Origin: Acidimicrobiaceae bacterium
Lineage (GTDB): Bacteria; Actinomycetota; Acidimicrobiia; Acidimicrobiales; Aldehydirespiratoraceae
Assembly (NCBI GenBank): GCA_028819005.1
Contig: JAPPMP010000021.1
Coordinates: forward strand, 42,125-83,482
Direction: 5' to 3'
DNA: 41,358 bases
Part shown: positions 19,543-26,305 of the stretch, piece by piece
How the letters are laid out: every line of letters begins with the position of its first letter
Numbering within the stretch: position 1 is the first letter of the stretch
The notes under the pieces: model-generated
Told to the model about the DNA's origin: nothing
Databases searched by the model: none
The model's input: only the letters and a program-made list of their open reading frames with translations
Made by a program: the position numbers and the translations under genes

Positions 19543-19845
19543 ATGGAAGCGGACGCCATCGTGTAACTCGTCACCATCGTGGTGACAGCCATGGGAATCG
19601 TCTGGCACCAACAACACAGCACCAACCAACTCCGGACGGAGTTCCGCGAAGACAACCGGCAACTCCGCGAAGACTTCAATACCGCGAACCGCGAACTCCG
19701 CGAAGACTTCAAAGTGCTGCGCGACGACCACGACAAGCTCCGCGACGCCGTCGCCCAGAACGGGCAGCGACTCGCCCGCATCGAGGGACACTTGGGCATC
19801 GGCATTCCTTCCACCGACGACCCAAGCGACCCCGTACCGGAGTAG
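19543..19845 (+). pseudogene. Small membrane-anchored coiled-coil protein, copy 1, with a premature stop
   Basis: From the ATG at 19543 the frame is the same as copy 2 (19855-20142), but codon 8 is TAA (19564-19566) where copy 2 has CAA, a single C-to-T change. After the stop the frame runs on for 94 codons. The C-terminal part is well conserved: a WHQQ motif, a heptad-like Arg/Glu/Asp-rich coiled coil with repeated LRED blocks, then LARIEGHLGIG and an acidic tail. A GTG at 19579 or an ATG at 19591 could restart translation without the N-terminal half of the membrane helix. I therefore call it a probable pseudogene or a shortened form. Function is unknown. Confidence 0.6.
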
Positions 19846-19854
19846 ATCGACGCC

Positions 19855-20142
19855 ATGGAAGCGGACACGATCGTGCAACTCGTCACCGTCGTGGTGGCAG
19901 CCATGGGAATCATCTGGCACCAACAACGCGGCACCACTCAACTCCGTTCAGAATTTCGCGAAGGCATGGGATCGCTGCGCAAAGAGTTCAACGACGGGTT
20001 CAAGTCGCTTCGCGAGGACCATGACAAACTCCGCGACGCCGTCACGCAGAACGGCCAGCGACTTGCCCGTATCGAAGGACACCTGGGCATCGGCATTCCT
20101 CCCACCGACGGCCCGAGTGACCCGGAGCCGCGGCCCGGTTGA
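19855..20142 (+). CDS. Small membrane-anchored coiled-coil protein, copy 2 (unknown family)
   Basis: A 95-residue protein: one N-terminal transmembrane helix (about residues 5-21, VQLVTVVVAAMGIIW), then WHQQ, a charged coiled coil (~25-70), LARIEGHLGIGIPPTDG and a short Pro/acidic tail. It starts 9 bp after copy 1 and is about 80% identical to it, so the pair is a tandem duplication. A third relative is at 38945-39175. I do not recognise a named family; short one-helix coiled-coil proteins of this kind are known among phage holin-associated and toxin-related proteins, but nothing here shows such a role. Its position between herA and mcrC, and of copy 3 next to a helicase fusion, suggests a link with DNA-processing genes. 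Confidence 0.7.
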   Translation: MEADTIVQLVTVVVAAMGIIWHQQRGTTQLRSEFREGMGSLRKEFNDGFKSLREDHDKLRDAVTQNGQRLARIEGHLGIGIPPTDGPSDPEPRPG

Positions 20143-20180: not shown

Positions 20181-21536
20181 CTAGGTCGAGTAGCCGACGA
20201 GATGGTCGGCGAGGGCTGTGATCTGATCTCGTATGCTTTGCGGGCTGCCGGACAAGTCGATGCCTACGGCATGGAGTCGTGTCCCCACGTTCCTGACTTC
20301 GATGCTGGACTTTGCCAGGCGCGCGGGCGAGGAGTCGGAACGGTCCGCTGCATCGCCGTCGCCCGTTTCGTTGGCATCGACACAGTAGATCAGCGTGCCG
20401 CAACGGTGGTCGAGTGCCGTCGTGTAAGCCAATAACTGATAGTAGTCGGCATGGGTCGCCCAGATTCCTGAGCCGGCATCCTCCGCCGCGGCGGACTCGT
20501 AAGCTTCGCGGAGTTTGTACTTGATGTCGGCGACCCCGACGCTTGTACCGTCCCGGCTGAGCAGCAGATCCGGTTTGATCCTCACGTTTCCATCTGTGTC
20601 CAGCGTGCTGGACTTCTGCCCCTCAACCTCCAGACGACCGCTCAGTTCCTGTCGCAGACGTTCTGTGACAAACCTCTCGAAGAGTTTGTTCATGTCCAGC
20701 ATGAACGCCGAGGCCGTTGTGTCACCGTGCTGGTCCTGCAGCGTGAGGTTGGCCAGGATCAGGCGGGCAAGATGCATCGCATGCAGGTAGTGGTCGTTGA
20801 GCCGAGTGAAGGTGATGCGTTCTAGATCGTCCGCGTCGGTCGGCACGTCGGCCACGTCTTCCAAGGCAACTAGCAGACGCATGATTCGACGTCGGTCTAC
20901 GGGCTTCACCCCGGCGACCCGTATCGCTCGTCGCATCGCCGCCTTGAGATAGCGGTTCTCGGCAACGTCGGCCGTGAAGTCGTCATAGGAGCAGGCCATC
21001 GGAACCAGGAGTCCACCCCTGCGGAACTGGCGCGTGAAGTCGAGCCGCCCGCGCAACGCCAGCAGGTCTTCTTCTTCGTGACGGTACGAGTGGTAGTGCC
21101 CTCGGGCCAGCGTCGTTTCTGCCCTGCGCGCGAAGAACGAGATCAACTCCGATAACAGATCGTCGGTCTCTGCGTAGTCGATCGCCCCCGGCTGCCGGGC
21201 TTCTTCTGGCAGACCGACTTCCAGCAGCAGAAACAGGTTCTCCAGGTTGATCTTGGGCCTCACCATGACCCGCAGCCCGTCTATCGTGAACCCCCCGACG
21301 AACTGCTTCGCGGTGATTTTCCAATACCCGGCTCCAGAATCGGGCTGCACCGACAACCAGGGCAGGTCCCTGAGCCGTCGCGCCAGTGATTCGCTCAGCT
21401 CGATCCGCCGCGTCTCCCACTCCACCAGTGTGACCGGCTCCAATTCGACCGGCGGATCATCGACCCGCGGCTCATCGACCGCGGGCATCCGGTGAGCGAT
21501 CTCCGACTCCTCAAGCACACTCGCGACAACCGACAT
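20181..21536 (-). CDS. mcrC: McrC-type nuclease subunit of a McrBC restriction system
   Basis: A 451-residue McrC-family protein. The N-terminal ~190 residues carry the family's beta-rich domain, with a segment around GYWKITAKQFVGGF. The C-terminal PD-(D/E)xK nuclease core is seen as an Asp in KPDLLL (~322) and the DIKYK motif (~340). McrC cuts DNA when stimulated by the McrB GTPase ring after McrB binds modified DNA. Its start lies 12 bp after the mcrB stop, so the two form an operon in the usual order, mcrB first. Confidence 0.9.
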   Translation of the reverse strand: MSVVASVLEESEIAHRMPAVDEPRVDDPPVELEPVTLVEWETRRIELSESLARRLRDLPWLSVQPDSGAGYWKITAKQFVGGFTIDGLRVMVRPKINLENLFLLLEVGLPEEARQPGAIDYAETDDLLSELISFFARRAETTLARGHYHSYRHEEEDLLALRGRLDFTRQFRRGGLLVPMACSYDDFTADVAENRYLKAAMRRAIRVAGVKPVDRRRIMRLLVALEDVADVPTDADDLERITFTRLNDHYLHAMHLARLILANLTLQDQHGDTTASAFMLDMNKLFERFVTERLRQELSGRLEVEGQKSSTLDTDGNVRIKPDLLLSRDGTSVGVADIKYKLREAYESAAAEDAGSGIWATHADYYQLLAYTTALDHRCGTLIYCVDANETGDGDAADRSDSSPARLAKSSIEVRNVGTRLHAVGIDLSGSPQSIRDQITALADHLVGYST

Positions 21537-21548
21537 CTCGTCGTGTCT

Positions 21549-23960
21549 CTACTCGCCGCCCGCTGTTGACTCACCGCCGTCTGGACCCAGCGACTCGATC
21601 TGTTCAAACGTTCTCGTCGGTTTTGAATCTTCGGTCAGGTCGGCTTCGCGCGCGGTCTCACCACGACCGTGTCGCCCTAGCACAGCGTCTAGGCGGAATT
21701 GCTTGATCTTGTCGGTCCGGCCGAAGAGTTGGTCCTCGATGAAGGGTTCAATGTTGTATTCCCAGACGCGCTCGAAGCCTCCCTCGTTGAGGCCGGGCTT
21801 CATGAAATGGCTTGGCCCCAGCTGCAGGTGATCCCCGCCAAGCTCTCTTTCGAGTTCGCTATTGACTGCGGATACCAGGGCAGGTACCCAAGCTTGGTCG
21901 GGCGCGTTTTTGTAGGTCCACTTTCGCAGCAGGCTCGCTGTCGGTTCTCGCTCGGGGAAGAAGGGCACGAAATGGAACCGCCTGCGCATGGCCGCGTCGA
22001 TGAGCGCGATCGAGCGGTCGGCGGTGTTCATCGTGCCGATGAACCAGATGTTCTTCGGCAGTTTGAAGCTGTCGTCGGGTCTGTGCATCACCGCTATCGA
22101 CTTGTCCCGGTATTCGAGCAGGTAGAGCAGCTCGCCGAGCACTCTGGGAAGGTTTGCCCGGTTGATCTCGTCGATCACCATGACGTGCTGATCGGGATGG
22201 TCCGCCGCATGTTCAGCCAGCCTCGCAAGCGGTCCCGGCGTCAGTTCGTAGGTCATCTGATTGTCGTCGTCGGTGACCGGGCGGTAGCCCTCGAAGAAGT
22301 CCTCATAGGAGTACGCCGGATGGAACTGCACCAGGCTCCGCGTCTCGTCCTCGGGCGCCAACGCTTCGGCCAGAGTCTGCGCCAGGTAGGTCTTGCCGGT
22401 CCCAGGCGGACCATAGAGGATGATCTGCCCCTTGTCTTTGAGCAGACCAACGAGTTCCTCGAGATACTCCCACTTGCAGTACAGCCTCTCCGCGGCATCT
22501 GCCAAACGGTCTTCCATCTCAAGCTCGTCAACACTCGGCGGGTCTTGCTTGACGCTGGGATTGCGGTCACCGGGATCGATACCGTGCTCCGCCAGATATT
22601 GGATCCGATACGGTGCGTCACGCTTACGCAATCCGTATATGGTCTGCGGGCCGTTCAACATGGAGTTCAAATCCGCCGCAAGGACTTCTCTAGAAATGCC
22701 AGTCTGGAGCCACTCAACTGCTCTGCGTCGGCTCAACCCGTCCCCGAACGAAGGGTCGTGCTCGTAGGGGCCCTGAACGCGCCCAATCGCAACTCGCCGA
22801 GAGTCGAGTTCAGGTCGCTTCTGCGGCATGACGACAAAGTCGTCAACCTGCATTTCTCTGCCAAACCTCCAGATCTGGTCTCGTGCACTAGTCCCCCAAT
22901 GGGTAAGGCCTAACTCGTTCATGAGTTCGCCGAGTTCTTGACGGCTAGCAAACATCTCGAGATCCATGGTCAAGTCCAGATCCCATCCGAGAGTGATTAC
23001 GCTGTGGTTGAGATTGTGCCGTTCCATCTCACCGTTTGGGCCCGCACGCACAAGCCAGGTTCTCGGCGCTTCGGCCCGCGACTGCCGGTACTCGCACCAC
23101 TGCCCGATTATCGAGGAATGGCTATTCCTCAGTGATTCTTCAAGAACATCCTGATCGTACAGATGCCGTTCAACCAGGGCCGGGTCCAGCACCTCAGGGT
23201 TCTTGTCGTGCTTCAACGCGTGCTCAATCCAGCGGTGAACAACAGTTCCGATGCTGTTGATTGAGCCCGGCGAACGTCCACGGGAGCGCAAGTGTTCGAG
23301 GTATTCTTCCAAGCGTTCTCCCCAAAGCTCGGTTTCGTCATCCTGGAGTGACTCGAGGTACTCGCACCATCGACGGATGTGGCCAAGGTAGCCCTTGAGG
23401 GAGTCCTCGGACAGATCCGGACCCTGCTCAAGCAGATTATGTCTCGCTTGAGTTTGGTCAAATTCTCCAGGATCGGCGCTCCGCGCTAATGCTTGGCTGA
23501 TCCAGCGCCGGAGAATGAACCTCTTGGTATTGATCGTGGGTTCTTCATAGCCCTGATCGCGCAGTTGCTCGAAGTACTCCTCCAAGCGCTCTTCCCAATA
23601 CTCGCTTTCGTCATTGTGTTGGTGTCGCCGGTTCGGACTCTCAGGCGCGTGCCATTGGCCTGATCTCGTATCCTGGGTCTGCCAATGCTCACACCAGCGT
23701 CTGATGTGGCCTGTATAGGACCGGAGTGAGCCCTCCGCAAGGTTTGGATTTCGGTCATCCAGTTGATGATCCACTCGAGCTTGGTCGAACGTTGCGGGAT
23801 CCGTACCCCGAGACAACGTATAGCCGATCCAGTCTTTGAGAACCGAACTAGTCTCATCAATCAGGCTGTTCGAAAGACCGCGATCTCCCAAACCGTTCAG
23901 ATATTCCTCTAGACGTTTCTGCCAAAGCTGAGTTTGATCGGGGTTGCTGGAAACGCTCAT
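21549..23960 (-). CDS. mcrB: McrB-type AAA+ GTPase with three integrase-SAM-like N-terminal repeats and a PUA/EVE-like reader domain
   Basis: A ~803-residue protein. Three ~85-residue repeats (about residues 12-97, 120-207, 211-297) share the pattern W..(R/C)LEEY..L, RWI..AL, FD, S.R.Y.GHIRRWCE. This resembles the SAM-like core-binding domain of tyrosine recombinases. A ~160-residue domain follows (WLVRAG, VDDFVVMPQK, AIGRVQGPY), which looks like a PUA/EVE-type modified-base reader. The C-terminal McrB motor has GPPGTGKTY (~515), VMVIDEINRANLP (~592) and WFIGTMNTADRS (~642). I chose the ATG at 23960 because GCGAGGAC lies ~10 nt upstream; an ATG at 23990 would add ten residues. The repeats should bind DNA and probably define the target, which is inference. 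Confidence 0.88.
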   Translation of the reverse strand: MSVSSNPDQTQLWQKRLEEYLNGLGDRGLSNSLIDETSSVLKDWIGYTLSRGTDPATFDQARVDHQLDDRNPNLAEGSLRSYTGHIRRWCEHWQTQDTRSGQWHAPESPNRRHQHNDESEYWEERLEEYFEQLRDQGYEEPTINTKRFILRRWISQALARSADPGEFDQTQARHNLLEQGPDLSEDSLKGYLGHIRRWCEYLESLQDDETELWGERLEEYLEHLRSRGRSPGSINSIGTVVHRWIEHALKHDKNPEVLDPALVERHLYDQDVLEESLRNSHSSIIGQWCEYRQSRAEAPRTWLVRAGPNGEMERHNLNHSVITLGWDLDLTMDLEMFASRQELGELMNELGLTHWGTSARDQIWRFGREMQVDDFVVMPQKRPELDSRRVAIGRVQGPYEHDPSFGDGLSRRRAVEWLQTGISREVLAADLNSMLNGPQTIYGLRKRDAPYRIQYLAEHGIDPGDRNPSVKQDPPSVDELEMEDRLADAAERLYCKWEYLEELVGLLKDKGQIILYGPPGTGKTYLAQTLAEALAPEDETRSLVQFHPAYSYEDFFEGYRPVTDDDNQMTYELTPGPLARLAEHAADHPDQHVMVIDEINRANLPRVLGELLYLLEYRDKSIAVMHRPDDSFKLPKNIWFIGTMNTADRSIALIDAAMRRRFHFVPFFPEREPTASLLRKWTYKNAPDQAWVPALVSAVNSELERELGGDHLQLGPSHFMKPGLNEGGFERVWEYNIEPFIEDQLFGRTDKIKQFRLDAVLGRHGRGETAREADLTEDSKPTRTFEQIESLGPDGGESTAGGE

Positions 23961-24098
23961 GGGCGGGAGTCCTCGCTGTTGGGTTGTCATTGAACAAGCC
24001 GATTGATAGCTCAGATGAGAGTAGCTGGGCGAACCTTTGGGAGTGAGAACTGGGCGCGGGGTCCTGTTTGCTGAGTTCAGGGCCCGACTTTCGGACTG

Positions 24099-24818
24099 TC
24101 AGTTCTTGTACCGCCTCCGCACGCGAAAGACCCGGCGAGGTGGCGGGCGCTGTGAGGGGCGCGGAGCGGAGTGTCGCGGACCATCGGTGCTGTCCGGCCG
24201 ACCTGACTGCCGCCACTTGCACCACCCTCGGATATGGGACGTATAGCTCCTGCGAGAATTCTCCGAGAGATCCAAAGGACCCACGAACGTCTCGAACAGA
24301 TCCTCATCGAACACCTCCGGGCTCCGCCCGGCCCACAACGCATAATCGATCCAACGCGACACAATGCTCTTGGTATCCGAGACCGTCCCCGGGGCACGGT
24401 TCGCTGCGCGCAACGCCGCCAAATACTCCTCAAGACACTGCCGCCAAACCTCATGAACATCGCCACTGTCAGGACTCACACGGTCGCCGACCGGTCGTCG
24501 GTGCCCACTTCTCGCCACGCGCCCGCGAGGGCTGCGGACCTCACCACCTGACTGCCGCCACTTGCACCACCTTCGGATATGGGATGTATAGCTCCTGCGA
24601 GAATTCTCCGAGAGATCCAAAGGACCCACGAACGTCTCGAACAGATCCTCATCGAACACCTCCGGGCTCCGCCCGGCCCACAACGCATAATCGATCCAAC
24701 GCGACACAATGCTCTTGGTATCCGAGACCGTCCCCGGGGCACGGTTCGCTGCGAGCAACGCCGCCAAATACTCCTCAAGACACTGCCGCCAAACCTCACG
24801 GCACGCCTGACCTGCCAT
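24099..24818 (-). CDS. Orphan reading frame with two near-identical integrase-SAM-like modules (decaying or spare McrB specificity repeats)
   Basis: 239 codons. Two ~84-residue modules (about residues 9-92 and 124-207) differ at only two residues. They are clearly homologous to the three McrB repeats: LEEYLAAL, SRWIDYALW, EVFDEDLFE, RRSYTSHIR, WCKWRQS. The ~30 residues between and after them are Arg/Pro/Gly-rich and look like out-of-frame sequence, as if linkers had been frameshifted. A TAGACA lies 6 nt before the ATG at 24818, suggesting a leaderless start. It ends 108-138 bp before mcrB on the same strand. No catalytic or ATPase domain is present. It may be a real DNA-binding protein, a remnant of a longer McrB N-terminus, or a donor of modules. 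Confidence 0.55.
   Translation of the reverse strand: MAGQACREVWRQCLEEYLAALLAANRAPGTVSDTKSIVSRWIDYALWAGRSPEVFDEDLFETFVGPLDLSENSRRSYTSHIRRWCKWRQSGGEVRSPRGRVARSGHRRPVGDRVSPDSGDVHEVWRQCLEEYLAALRAANRAPGTVSDTKSIVSRWIDYALWAGRSPEVFDEDLFETFVGPLDLSENSRRSYTSHIRGWCKWRQSGRPDSTDGPRHSAPRPSQRPPPRRVFRVRRRYKN
24201..24798. repeat. 253-bp direct duplication of one McrB-type module
   Basis: 24201-24453 and 24546-24798 align without gaps at an offset of 345 bp, with only three mismatches that I find (about 99% identity). Each copy encodes one complete module on the minus strand. The 92 bp between them do not match the flanks. The near identity means the duplication is recent, whereas the three repeats inside mcrB have diverged. 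Confidence 0.9.
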
Positions 24819-24836: not shown

Positions 24837-24849
24837 GGACTGTCAGTCC
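24837..24849. promoter_or_regulatory. 13-bp interrupted palindrome in a divergent promoter region
   Basis: GGACT-GTC-AGTCC is a 5-bp inverted repeat with a 3-bp centre. It lies between the divergent starts at 24818 (orphan module gene) and 24888 (AIM24-like gene), where a repressor could control both. Such a short palindrome can occur by chance. Confidence 0.25.
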
Positions 24850-24887: not shown

Positions 24888-25571
24888 ATGCAGGTAGATA
24901 TTCGTCACGCTCCCAGTTTTGCCGTCGCCAGGTGCACGCTCGGGGGTGGTGAGCAGGTCAAAGTCGAGGCTGGCGCCATGTCGGCCCATTCTTCAGGGAT
25001 GTCGCTCGAGGCCAAGGTGGAAGGCGGCATGCTCAAGGGGCTCAAGCGCAGTGTGTTGGGCGGTGAGTCGCTGTTCGTTTCCACCTACACCGCCCCGGCA
25101 GCGGGCGGCTGGGTGGATGTGGCCGCCAAGCTGCCCGGCGATCTCCGGGTGATCGAACTCGACGGTTCCCAAGCGTGGATTATCGAGCGAGGCAATTGGC
25201 TGGCCTCTGACGCCTCGGTGGTGATGGACACCAAGTGGGGTGGATTCAAGTCGATGTTCGGCGGTGAAGGAGGGTTCATGGCCCACGCCGAGGGCACCGG
25301 CAGCTTGTTAGTTGCCTCCTATGGAGCGATCGACGTGATCTCGCTTGCTGCCGGCGAAACAGTGGTGGTGGACACCAGCCACATGCTGGCATTTCCCGAC
25401 ACCGTCAGCTACGAGTTGCGCCGGGCCGTGGAAGGCCGCTCGATCCAGTCGATGAAGTCGGGCGAAGGTTTCGTATTCCACTTCAGCGGCCCTGGGGACA
25501 TCCTGACCCAGACCCGCAACCAAGCACAGCTCATCGCTTGGATCAACACCGAGATCGGCTCTCGCGAATAG
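24888..25571 (+). CDS. AIM24/TIGR00266-family protein
   Basis: A 227-residue all-beta protein. It shows the features of the AIM24 family, bacterial relatives of a mitochondrial biogenesis factor: VKVEAGAMSAHS near residue 25, GLKRSVLGGESLF near residue 53, and FMAHAEGTG plus LASYGAIDVISL near residues 128-145. Its biochemical role in bacteria is not established. The start at 24888 was chosen from the leaderless -10 box and because the family sequence begins there. The last 11 codons and the TAG stop are part of a 35-bp direct repeat, the second copy of which lies in the gap before vapC. Confidence 0.8.
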   Translation: MQVDIRHAPSFAVARCTLGGGEQVKVEAGAMSAHSSGMSLEAKVEGGMLKGLKRSVLGGESLFVSTYTAPAAGGWVDVAAKLPGDLRVIELDGSQAWIIERGNWLASDASVVMDTKWGGFKSMFGGEGGFMAHAEGTGSLLVASYGAIDVISLAAGETVVVDTSHMLAFPDTVSYELRRAVEGRSIQSMKSGEGFVFHFSGPGDILTQTRNQAQLIAWINTEIGSRE

Positions 25572-25638
25572 CGGGGCCCGGCAAAACGACGTTCATGCTG
25601 ACCTGGATCAACACCGAGATCGGCTCTCGCGAATAGCG
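25539..25638 (+). repeat. 35-bp perfect direct repeat including the stop codon, 65 bp apart
   Basis: 25539-25573 and 25604-25638 are identical over 35 bp. The first copy contains the last codons and TAG stop of the AIM24-like gene. The second lies after it, before the convergent vapC gene. It is the same arrangement as at the MFS 3' end. Confidence 0.9.
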
Positions 25639-25664: not shown

Positions 25665-26072
25665 CTAGCTGTCGAGGACCGGAGGGGTGATCACGGGGCA
25701 GCGGGTTCCGCCGGCTTTGCTCAGCTTGCGGTCGAGGGTCAGCAGCGGGTAGTCGAACGCTTCGGCCAATGCCACATACCAGGCGTCGTAGCTGGTCAAA
25801 TTGGCACGCAATTCCCACACCCGATCAGAGAACGGAGCGAACGGGCAGAGCTCGATGTCCAACCGGAGCAGGTCGCGTTGCGCTGCTTTGGTTTCCATTG
25901 GCGACACCTGGCCAGAGAGCTCAAGGCGACGAAGAATGTTGGTGGCTTCGACCAGAGCCAGTTCTGGCGCAGTCAATGGACCCTCCGAGGCAACTGATTC
26001 TGCCCATCGGCCTTCAGGACTCGCGTCGACCAAGGCCGCCACAAGCACCGAGGCGTCCACGACAGCGTTCAC
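25665..26072 (-). CDS. vapC: VapC-type PIN-domain toxin ribonuclease
   Basis: A 135-residue PIN-domain protein. The four acidic active-site positions are in place: Asp6 (VVDASVL), Glu42 (LVEATNIL), Asp96 (SYDAWYVALAE) and Asp114 (LTLDRKL). VapC toxins are Mg2+-dependent RNases that cut tRNA or rRNA and are held inactive by VapB. The GTG start at 26072 overlaps the antitoxin stop by 4 bp, with the antitoxin gene first, as usual. The active site appears intact. Confidence 0.9.
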   Translation of the reverse strand: MNAVVDASVLVAALVDASPEGRWAESVASEGPLTAPELALVEATNILRRLELSGQVSPMETKAAQRDLLRLDIELCPFAPFSDRVWELRANLTSYDAWYVALAEAFDYPLLTLDRKLSKAGGTRCPVITPPVLDS

Positions 26073-26305
26073 ACTCGGTCCGCATCGCGTGCCGCAAGGA
26101 TCTCCGAAGACGAGACCCGAGTTCCTGCGGCTTCTTTGCGGTGTCGAACCTCTTCGAACAAGTTCTCCAGGGAGGGCTTCGCAGCGATGCGTTCCAGTTC
26201 ACCGCTGAGGAACTCCTGCATGGATTGTCGCTTCATGGCGGCTTTTGCGGCCAGTGCGTCACGGACTTCCTCGCGCACGCCTCGAATGGTGATCTGTACC
26301 GACAT
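26069..26305 (-). CDS. vapB: VapB/FitA-like ribbon-helix-helix antitoxin
   Basis: A 78-residue protein. The first ~45 residues form a ribbon-helix-helix DNA-binding domain: VQITIRGV strand, then VRDALAAKAAMKRQSMQEFLSGEL helices. This resembles FitA-type antitoxins. The C-terminal tail, with ENLFEEVRHRKEAAG, should wrap around the VapC active site. It presumably represses its own operon, and a palindrome lies on the start codon. Confidence 0.85.
   Translation of the reverse strand: MSVQITIRGVREEVRDALAAKAAMKRQSMQEFLSGELERIAAKPSLENLFEEVRHRKEAAGTRVSSSEILAARDADRV

Follow-up and report, generated by a model that had tools for sequence, protein, structure and literature searches.

Layout of the locus

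The window, a stretch of 41,358 nucleotides from an Acidimicrobiaceae contig (JAPPMP010000021.1), carries an orphan gene, mcrB and mcrC in this order on its minus strand (Table 1). The true start of mcrB is likely Met11 (position 23960), which has an AGGA upstream and is also where the gene of the relative G001 starts. A McrB-type AAA+ motor, an adjacent mcrC gene and a predicted modified-base reader place the locus among the type IV (McrBC) restriction systems. The same genome encodes a second McrBC that lacks modules and whose McrB shares 57% identity with the window McrB over aa 476-779.

Table 1. Positions of the McrBC locus features within the window
Feature	Position	Strand	Description
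mcrB	21549-23990	-	813 aa: three core-binding-domain modules, YTH/EVE-like reader, AAA+ (McrB-type) motor
Module M1	23676-23942	-	McrB aa 17-105
Module M2	23343-23615	-	McrB aa 126-216
Module M3	23073-23342	-	McrB aa 217-306
YTH/EVE-like (PUA superfamily) modified-base reader, predicted	22578-23063	-	McrB about aa 310-471
McrB AAA+ motor	21666-22523	-	McrB aa 490-775; AAA_5, NCBIfam McrB
mcrC, nuclease partner	20181-21536	-	PF10117, 2.1e-56; starts 12 bp downstream of mcrB
Orphan gene	24099-24818	-	239 aa: two core-binding modules with a basic linker and tail; lacks a motor
Orphan module O1	24540-24809	-	Orphan aa 4-93
Orphan module O2	24195-24464	-	Orphan aa 119-208
253-bp repeat, copy 1	24201-24453	.	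3 mismatches with copy 2
253-bp repeat, copy 2	24546-24798	.	3 mismatches with copy 1

An earlier note on this DNA, made from the sequence alone, had placed the modules before a PUA/EVE-like reader and the McrB motor, and the profile and fold matches agree with that order. The PADLOC profile PDC-S02 matches McrB residues 311-488 (E 4.7e-32). The structures nearest to the reader region (aa 302-471), which is modelled with low confidence, are EVE proteins (MJECL36, PH1033) and many YTH domains, at Z 6.5-8.1; a PDB profile search with the reader by itself had no significant match. The motor contains AAA_5 at aa 523-672 (1.3e-22) and matches NCBIfam McrB (E 1.2e-35), below the equivalog cut-off. 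Its signature is GTMNTAD, of the NxxD type. The CoCoNuT branch of McrBC, which has an NxD signature motif in the GTPase (PMC11090510), was therefore rejected for this protein. EVE-McrB and YTH-McrB type IV systems, exemplified by the Thermococcus gammatolerans McrB cited within the EVE survey PMC7641849, likewise have a YTH/EVE-superfamily reader N-terminal to the McrB motor and McrC downstream; the family described here differs from them by its one to three additional recombinase core-binding domains and the upstream two-module gene.

The downstream SbcCD/HerA genes were considered as part of the system and rejected, as they look like ordinary SbcC/SbcD and persist, partly deleted, where McrBC is absent. 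Between herA and mcrC, the plus strand carries two paralogous small coiled-coil open reading frames (19579-19845 and 19855-20142), of which relatives have additional copies dispersed around McrBC. The 3' end of an AIM24 gene holds an exact 35-nt direct repeat (25539-25573 and 25604-25638, 65 bp apart). A PIN toxin gene with a FitA-like RHH antitoxin gene (25665-26305) adjoins the McrBC locus, and a PIN gene is present at the same site in G001.

Fold and homology of the modules

Each module comprises about 85 residues. M1-M3 are 39-43% identical to one another, O1 and O2 are 91% identical, and O1/O2 share 34-41% with M1-M3. Pfam family PF02899 (Phage_int_SAM_1) exceeds its curated cut-off of 22.3 in the McrB and orphan proteins, with 23.3 and 23.9 bits, and the catalytic domain Phage_integrase was not matched by Pfam in either protein. 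A whole tyrosine recombinase or integrase was rejected for both, because neither includes a catalytic domain.

An AlphaFold2 model of the module, built from an alignment of 25 modules, consists of four helices with a pLDDT of 93.4 and a pTM of 0.85. After re-alignment with VIA-align 2, the best 34 PDB rows all belong to core-binding domains of recombinases or to repressors with a recombinase fold, the latter including MrpR (Z 8.8) and SroF. The closest are Brujita Int (Z 10.9, 86 residues, rmsd 2.6) and XerD (Z 10.8, 81 residues, rmsd 2.1), followed by an integron integrase (IntI, Z 10.2) and XerA (Z 9.6), with Cre at Z 8.3 and lambda Int at Z 7.6; unrelated folds rank after the recombinases, at Z 6.3 and below. 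Z-scores can mislead with helical bundles and these values alone are no proof, but the fold assignment holds because sequence profile matches agree with them. The module profile matches 3nrw (0.0019) and 5vfz (Brujita Int, 0.012) in the PDB and, in genomes of the phylum, reaches XerC/D-type recombinases of about 300-380 aa that end in a RHSYATHLLESGADLR...YTHV motif. On the profile and model evidence, the module is a tyrosine-recombinase core-binding domain without the catalytic domain. The likeness of three divergent McrB modules to such domains, which the earlier note had noticed, is thereby borne out, and the structure prediction with fold search that it had proposed led to XerD, XerA, Cre and lambda Int. 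In a model of McrB aa 1-483, which has poor confidence outside the modules, M2 is predicted to run into M3 via one continuous helix (aa 195-236), and M1 sits on a flexible linker.

The modules thus share fold, sequence profile, size and four helices with the core-binding domains of XerC/D, Cre and lambda Int (PF02899), but differ from these recombinases in lacking the catalytic domain, in forming tandem arrays, in being more acidic and in the partial loss of the basic motif of helix 2. The phage repressors MrpR/YopR and SroF likewise keep the recombinase fold without recombination; they retain the whole fold and regulate phages, whereas the modules are the N-terminal domain alone, in a restriction system. 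MrpR still binds DNA, at a repeated element, with a recombinase fold that no longer recombines (PMC10516654).

The net charge is negative in most modules (-1 to -10 in those of the window), against an average of about +2 for Xer core-binding domains. Helix 2 keeps only part of the YRRDL-type basic motif of Xer, and the basic residues of the modules cluster on helices 2 and 4, which are the DNA-contacting helices in Cre and Xer. The acidic net charge and the incomplete helix 2 motif make protein binding a serious rival to DNA binding: single modules may bind DNA weakly, or may bind protein instead.

Number, position and spread of modules among relatives

Relatives were searched within Actinomycetota, and the named module loci come from Acidimicrobiia metagenome assemblies. 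The homologue search and module count that the earlier note had suggested yielded 16 module-bearing McrBs, all in Acidimicrobiia, with one to three modules each. An order-wide search matched 18 of 397 genomes, the weakest matches probably being ordinary recombinases. Modules occur N-terminally, between reader and motor, inside the motor or at the C terminus. Three precede the reader in the window and in the sister species G003, two in G343 and one in G001; a single module lies between reader and motor in G004 and in G002, where the reader is in a separate frame. L116 and L105 have two modules with other domains, and L099 has one module. L136 (5821-8637) has two N-terminal modules and one inside the AAA+ motor, where it separates the Walker A helix from the SLVQFHP strand, and six proteins (G009, L101, L102, L107, L118 and L159) have one module at the C terminus. 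A lone 320-aa protein (L024:8773-9735) has one module at its N terminus, and its C-terminal region is unrecognised.

A same-site comparison within the genus, anchored on flanking genes, found three McrB modules plus two orphan modules in the window and G003, an McrB with one module and no orphan gene in G001, and no McrBC in G005. Module number therefore varies at one site. The modules were unmatched in 50,697 phage records and 72,556 plasmids and were not found in IMG/VR scans of viral contigs; with no copy in the records searched, carriage of the modules by phages or plasmids was rejected.

The same module also occurs in a methylase/helicase system without McrB. At loci L060, L025, L224 and L225, it is fused directly to a RAMA modified-base reader in proteins of 227-465 aa, one instance comprising two RAMA-module units. 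Their genes are flanked by one for an Eco57I-type methylase and one for a PLD-SNF2 helicase that is related to DISARM DrmD, and the loci are possibly an undescribed DISARM/BREX-like system. Modules thus adjoin modified-base readers twice independently, YTH/EVE in McrB and RAMA in the methylase/SNF2-helicase system. At L223 a 100-aa module stands alone, next to genes for a PglX/Eco57I-like methylase and a PLD-SNF2 helicase.

The orphan gene and its repeat

Two upstream motorless modules on a nearly identical 253-bp duplication, as described in the earlier note, are indeed present, the inner 253 bp differing at 3 sites within a longer repeat (24188-24453 and 24533-24798) of 97% identity. The suggestion that O1 and O2 are very recent copies had to be abandoned, since the sister species G003 has the pair too; what appears young is an older pair that has been homogenised. 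An assembly artefact, considered in the same note as a source of the duplication, was rejected because the G003 pair has its own different sequence, and as G003 was assembled independently and shows the same 2+3 layout, this layout is neither chance nor an assembly error. The G003 copies contain an exact 171-bp tract inside otherwise diverged sequence. O1 and O2 are homogenised within each genome, which is concerted evolution, presumably by gene conversion. With a dN/dS of 0.26 between the window and G003, the orphan gene is under purifying selection. Its product is most likely a DNA-binding accessory or a regulator of the operon.

The orphan gene and mcrB stand in one reading frame, with a sole TGA followed by C between them in both the window and the sister species (24099-24101, spacer 23991-24098). 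The spacer amounts to 36 codons without a coding-like GC pattern, and the chance of it containing no stop is 0.3-0.4. Programmed readthrough of the orphan TGA was considered, and the codon pattern of the spacer gives it no support. A perfect palindrome, GGACTGACAGTCC (24837-24849), is unique in the genome and precedes the orphan start by 18 bp; a copy with one mismatch spans the stop codon of the orphan gene (24093-24105). The palindrome was rejected as an operator because it is absent upstream of the orphan gene of the sister species.

Mosaic divergence of mcrB

Between the window and G003, the flanking genes, McrC and the motor have dS values of 0.44-0.56. The corresponding values are 0.20 for M1, 0.04 for M2 and about 0.1 for the two together, against 1.03 for M3 (dN 0.41) and 1.19 for the orphan gene (dN 0.31). 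Synonymous differences number 12/130 in M1-M2, 70/197 in the motor and 32/58 in M3, a departure from the motor at P 5e-8 for M1-M2 and P 0.006 for M3. The modules therefore have separate histories and, because it is silent sites that differ, mcrB is a mosaic that selection alone does not account for. An overlapping reading frame was rejected as the cause of the low M1-M2 dS, as no other frame is fully open or better conserved. In a tree, every McrB module (M1, M2 and M3) groups with the module at the corresponding position in the sister species; since this includes M3, M3 may be a diverged allele at that position and not a foreign module.

The orphan and McrB modules share no tract, with an amino acid identity of 46% at most. 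The earlier idea that modules are gained, lost or exchanged consequently stands in part: number and position vary, also at the same site, and the mosaic mcrB and the apparent conversion between O1 and O2 speak for exchange, but transfer from the orphan gene to mcrB was not seen.

Interpretation and alternatives

McrBC systems vary in their specificity domains. The McrBC census reported insertions in the GTPase domain that are likely specificity domains (PMC11090510). The words integrase, recombinase and SAM-like are absent from the main text of that census and of the EVE survey (PMC7641849), and full-text searches of open-access articles found no paper joining McrB with core-binding domains. 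The McrBC of the window is a real and unusual variant of McrBC.

We consider it fairly probable that the locus encodes a reader-bearing type IV McrB with a DNA-gripping array of core-binding domains. The YTH/EVE-like reader would find the modified base, and the three non-catalytic domains would grip the DNA beside it; this would raise affinity and might bring some preference for sequence or shape. The AAA+ motor and McrC would then do the cutting. The upstream gene would supply a separate two-module protein as DNA-binding accessory or operon regulator. We infer DNA binding, avidity, the role of the orphan protein and phage defence from the architecture and its evolution. Within this McrB family the modules relocate, duplicate and diverge independently, so that their function is most probably to contact DNA or a partner that is itself evolving, and they probably serve McrBC as a changeable DNA grip.

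That partner could be a protein. The modules would then be protein-protein or oligomerisation domains that have lost DNA binding and that tether McrB hexamers, McrC or the orphan protein, or sense a phage protein. Their acidity and the eroded Xer motif fit such a role, positions inside a motor loop and at the C terminus suit docking or sensing, and the bundle also structurally resembles protein-binding MRG domains, less well than recombinases. That the modules accompany modified-base readers in each of two unrelated systems, and that helices 2 and 4 keep basic residues, argues against it, and we hold this explanation to be possible but doubtful. Unlikely, in our judgement, is an extension of the DNA-gripping reading in which the array is an evolvable target-recognition device: recombinase domains would be shuffled, inserted and diversified to retune McrBC targets, the orphan protein would act in trans as a specificity or licensing subunit, and gene conversion would keep the orphan pair homogeneous.

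The cassette-like variation raised in the earlier note goes further, with the orphan modules as a stock of sequence whose recombination into mcrB would switch target specificity, similarly to S-subunits or TAL repeats. Variable module number and position, the mosaic divergence of mcrB and the apparent O1/O2 conversion would be expected from it; the want of a shared tract between orphan and McrB modules and the pairing of M1, M2 and M3 by position speak against it, and neither sequence reading by the modules nor a TAL-like or S-subunit-like code is supported; we rate it very unlikely. The common reading frame with its single TGA-C in both species could also mean that an ancestral McrB had five modules and that the orphan gene is its detached 5' end, which would now be useless or be joined to mcrB from time to time by readthrough. 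Against this origin, which seems highly improbable to us, stand the separate mcrB start with its AGGA, the non-coding character of the spacer, where the lack of a stop is no rare event, and the purifying selection on the orphan gene.

A domain of a mobile-element enzyme has here become a mobile accessory in each of two different defence systems, where it adjoins a modified-base reader both times. Should the modules bind DNA, they would offer a tractable case of a restriction enzyme that alters its grip through the gain, loss or replacement of small domains, for which natural variants with 0, 1, 2 or 3 modules are available for comparison.
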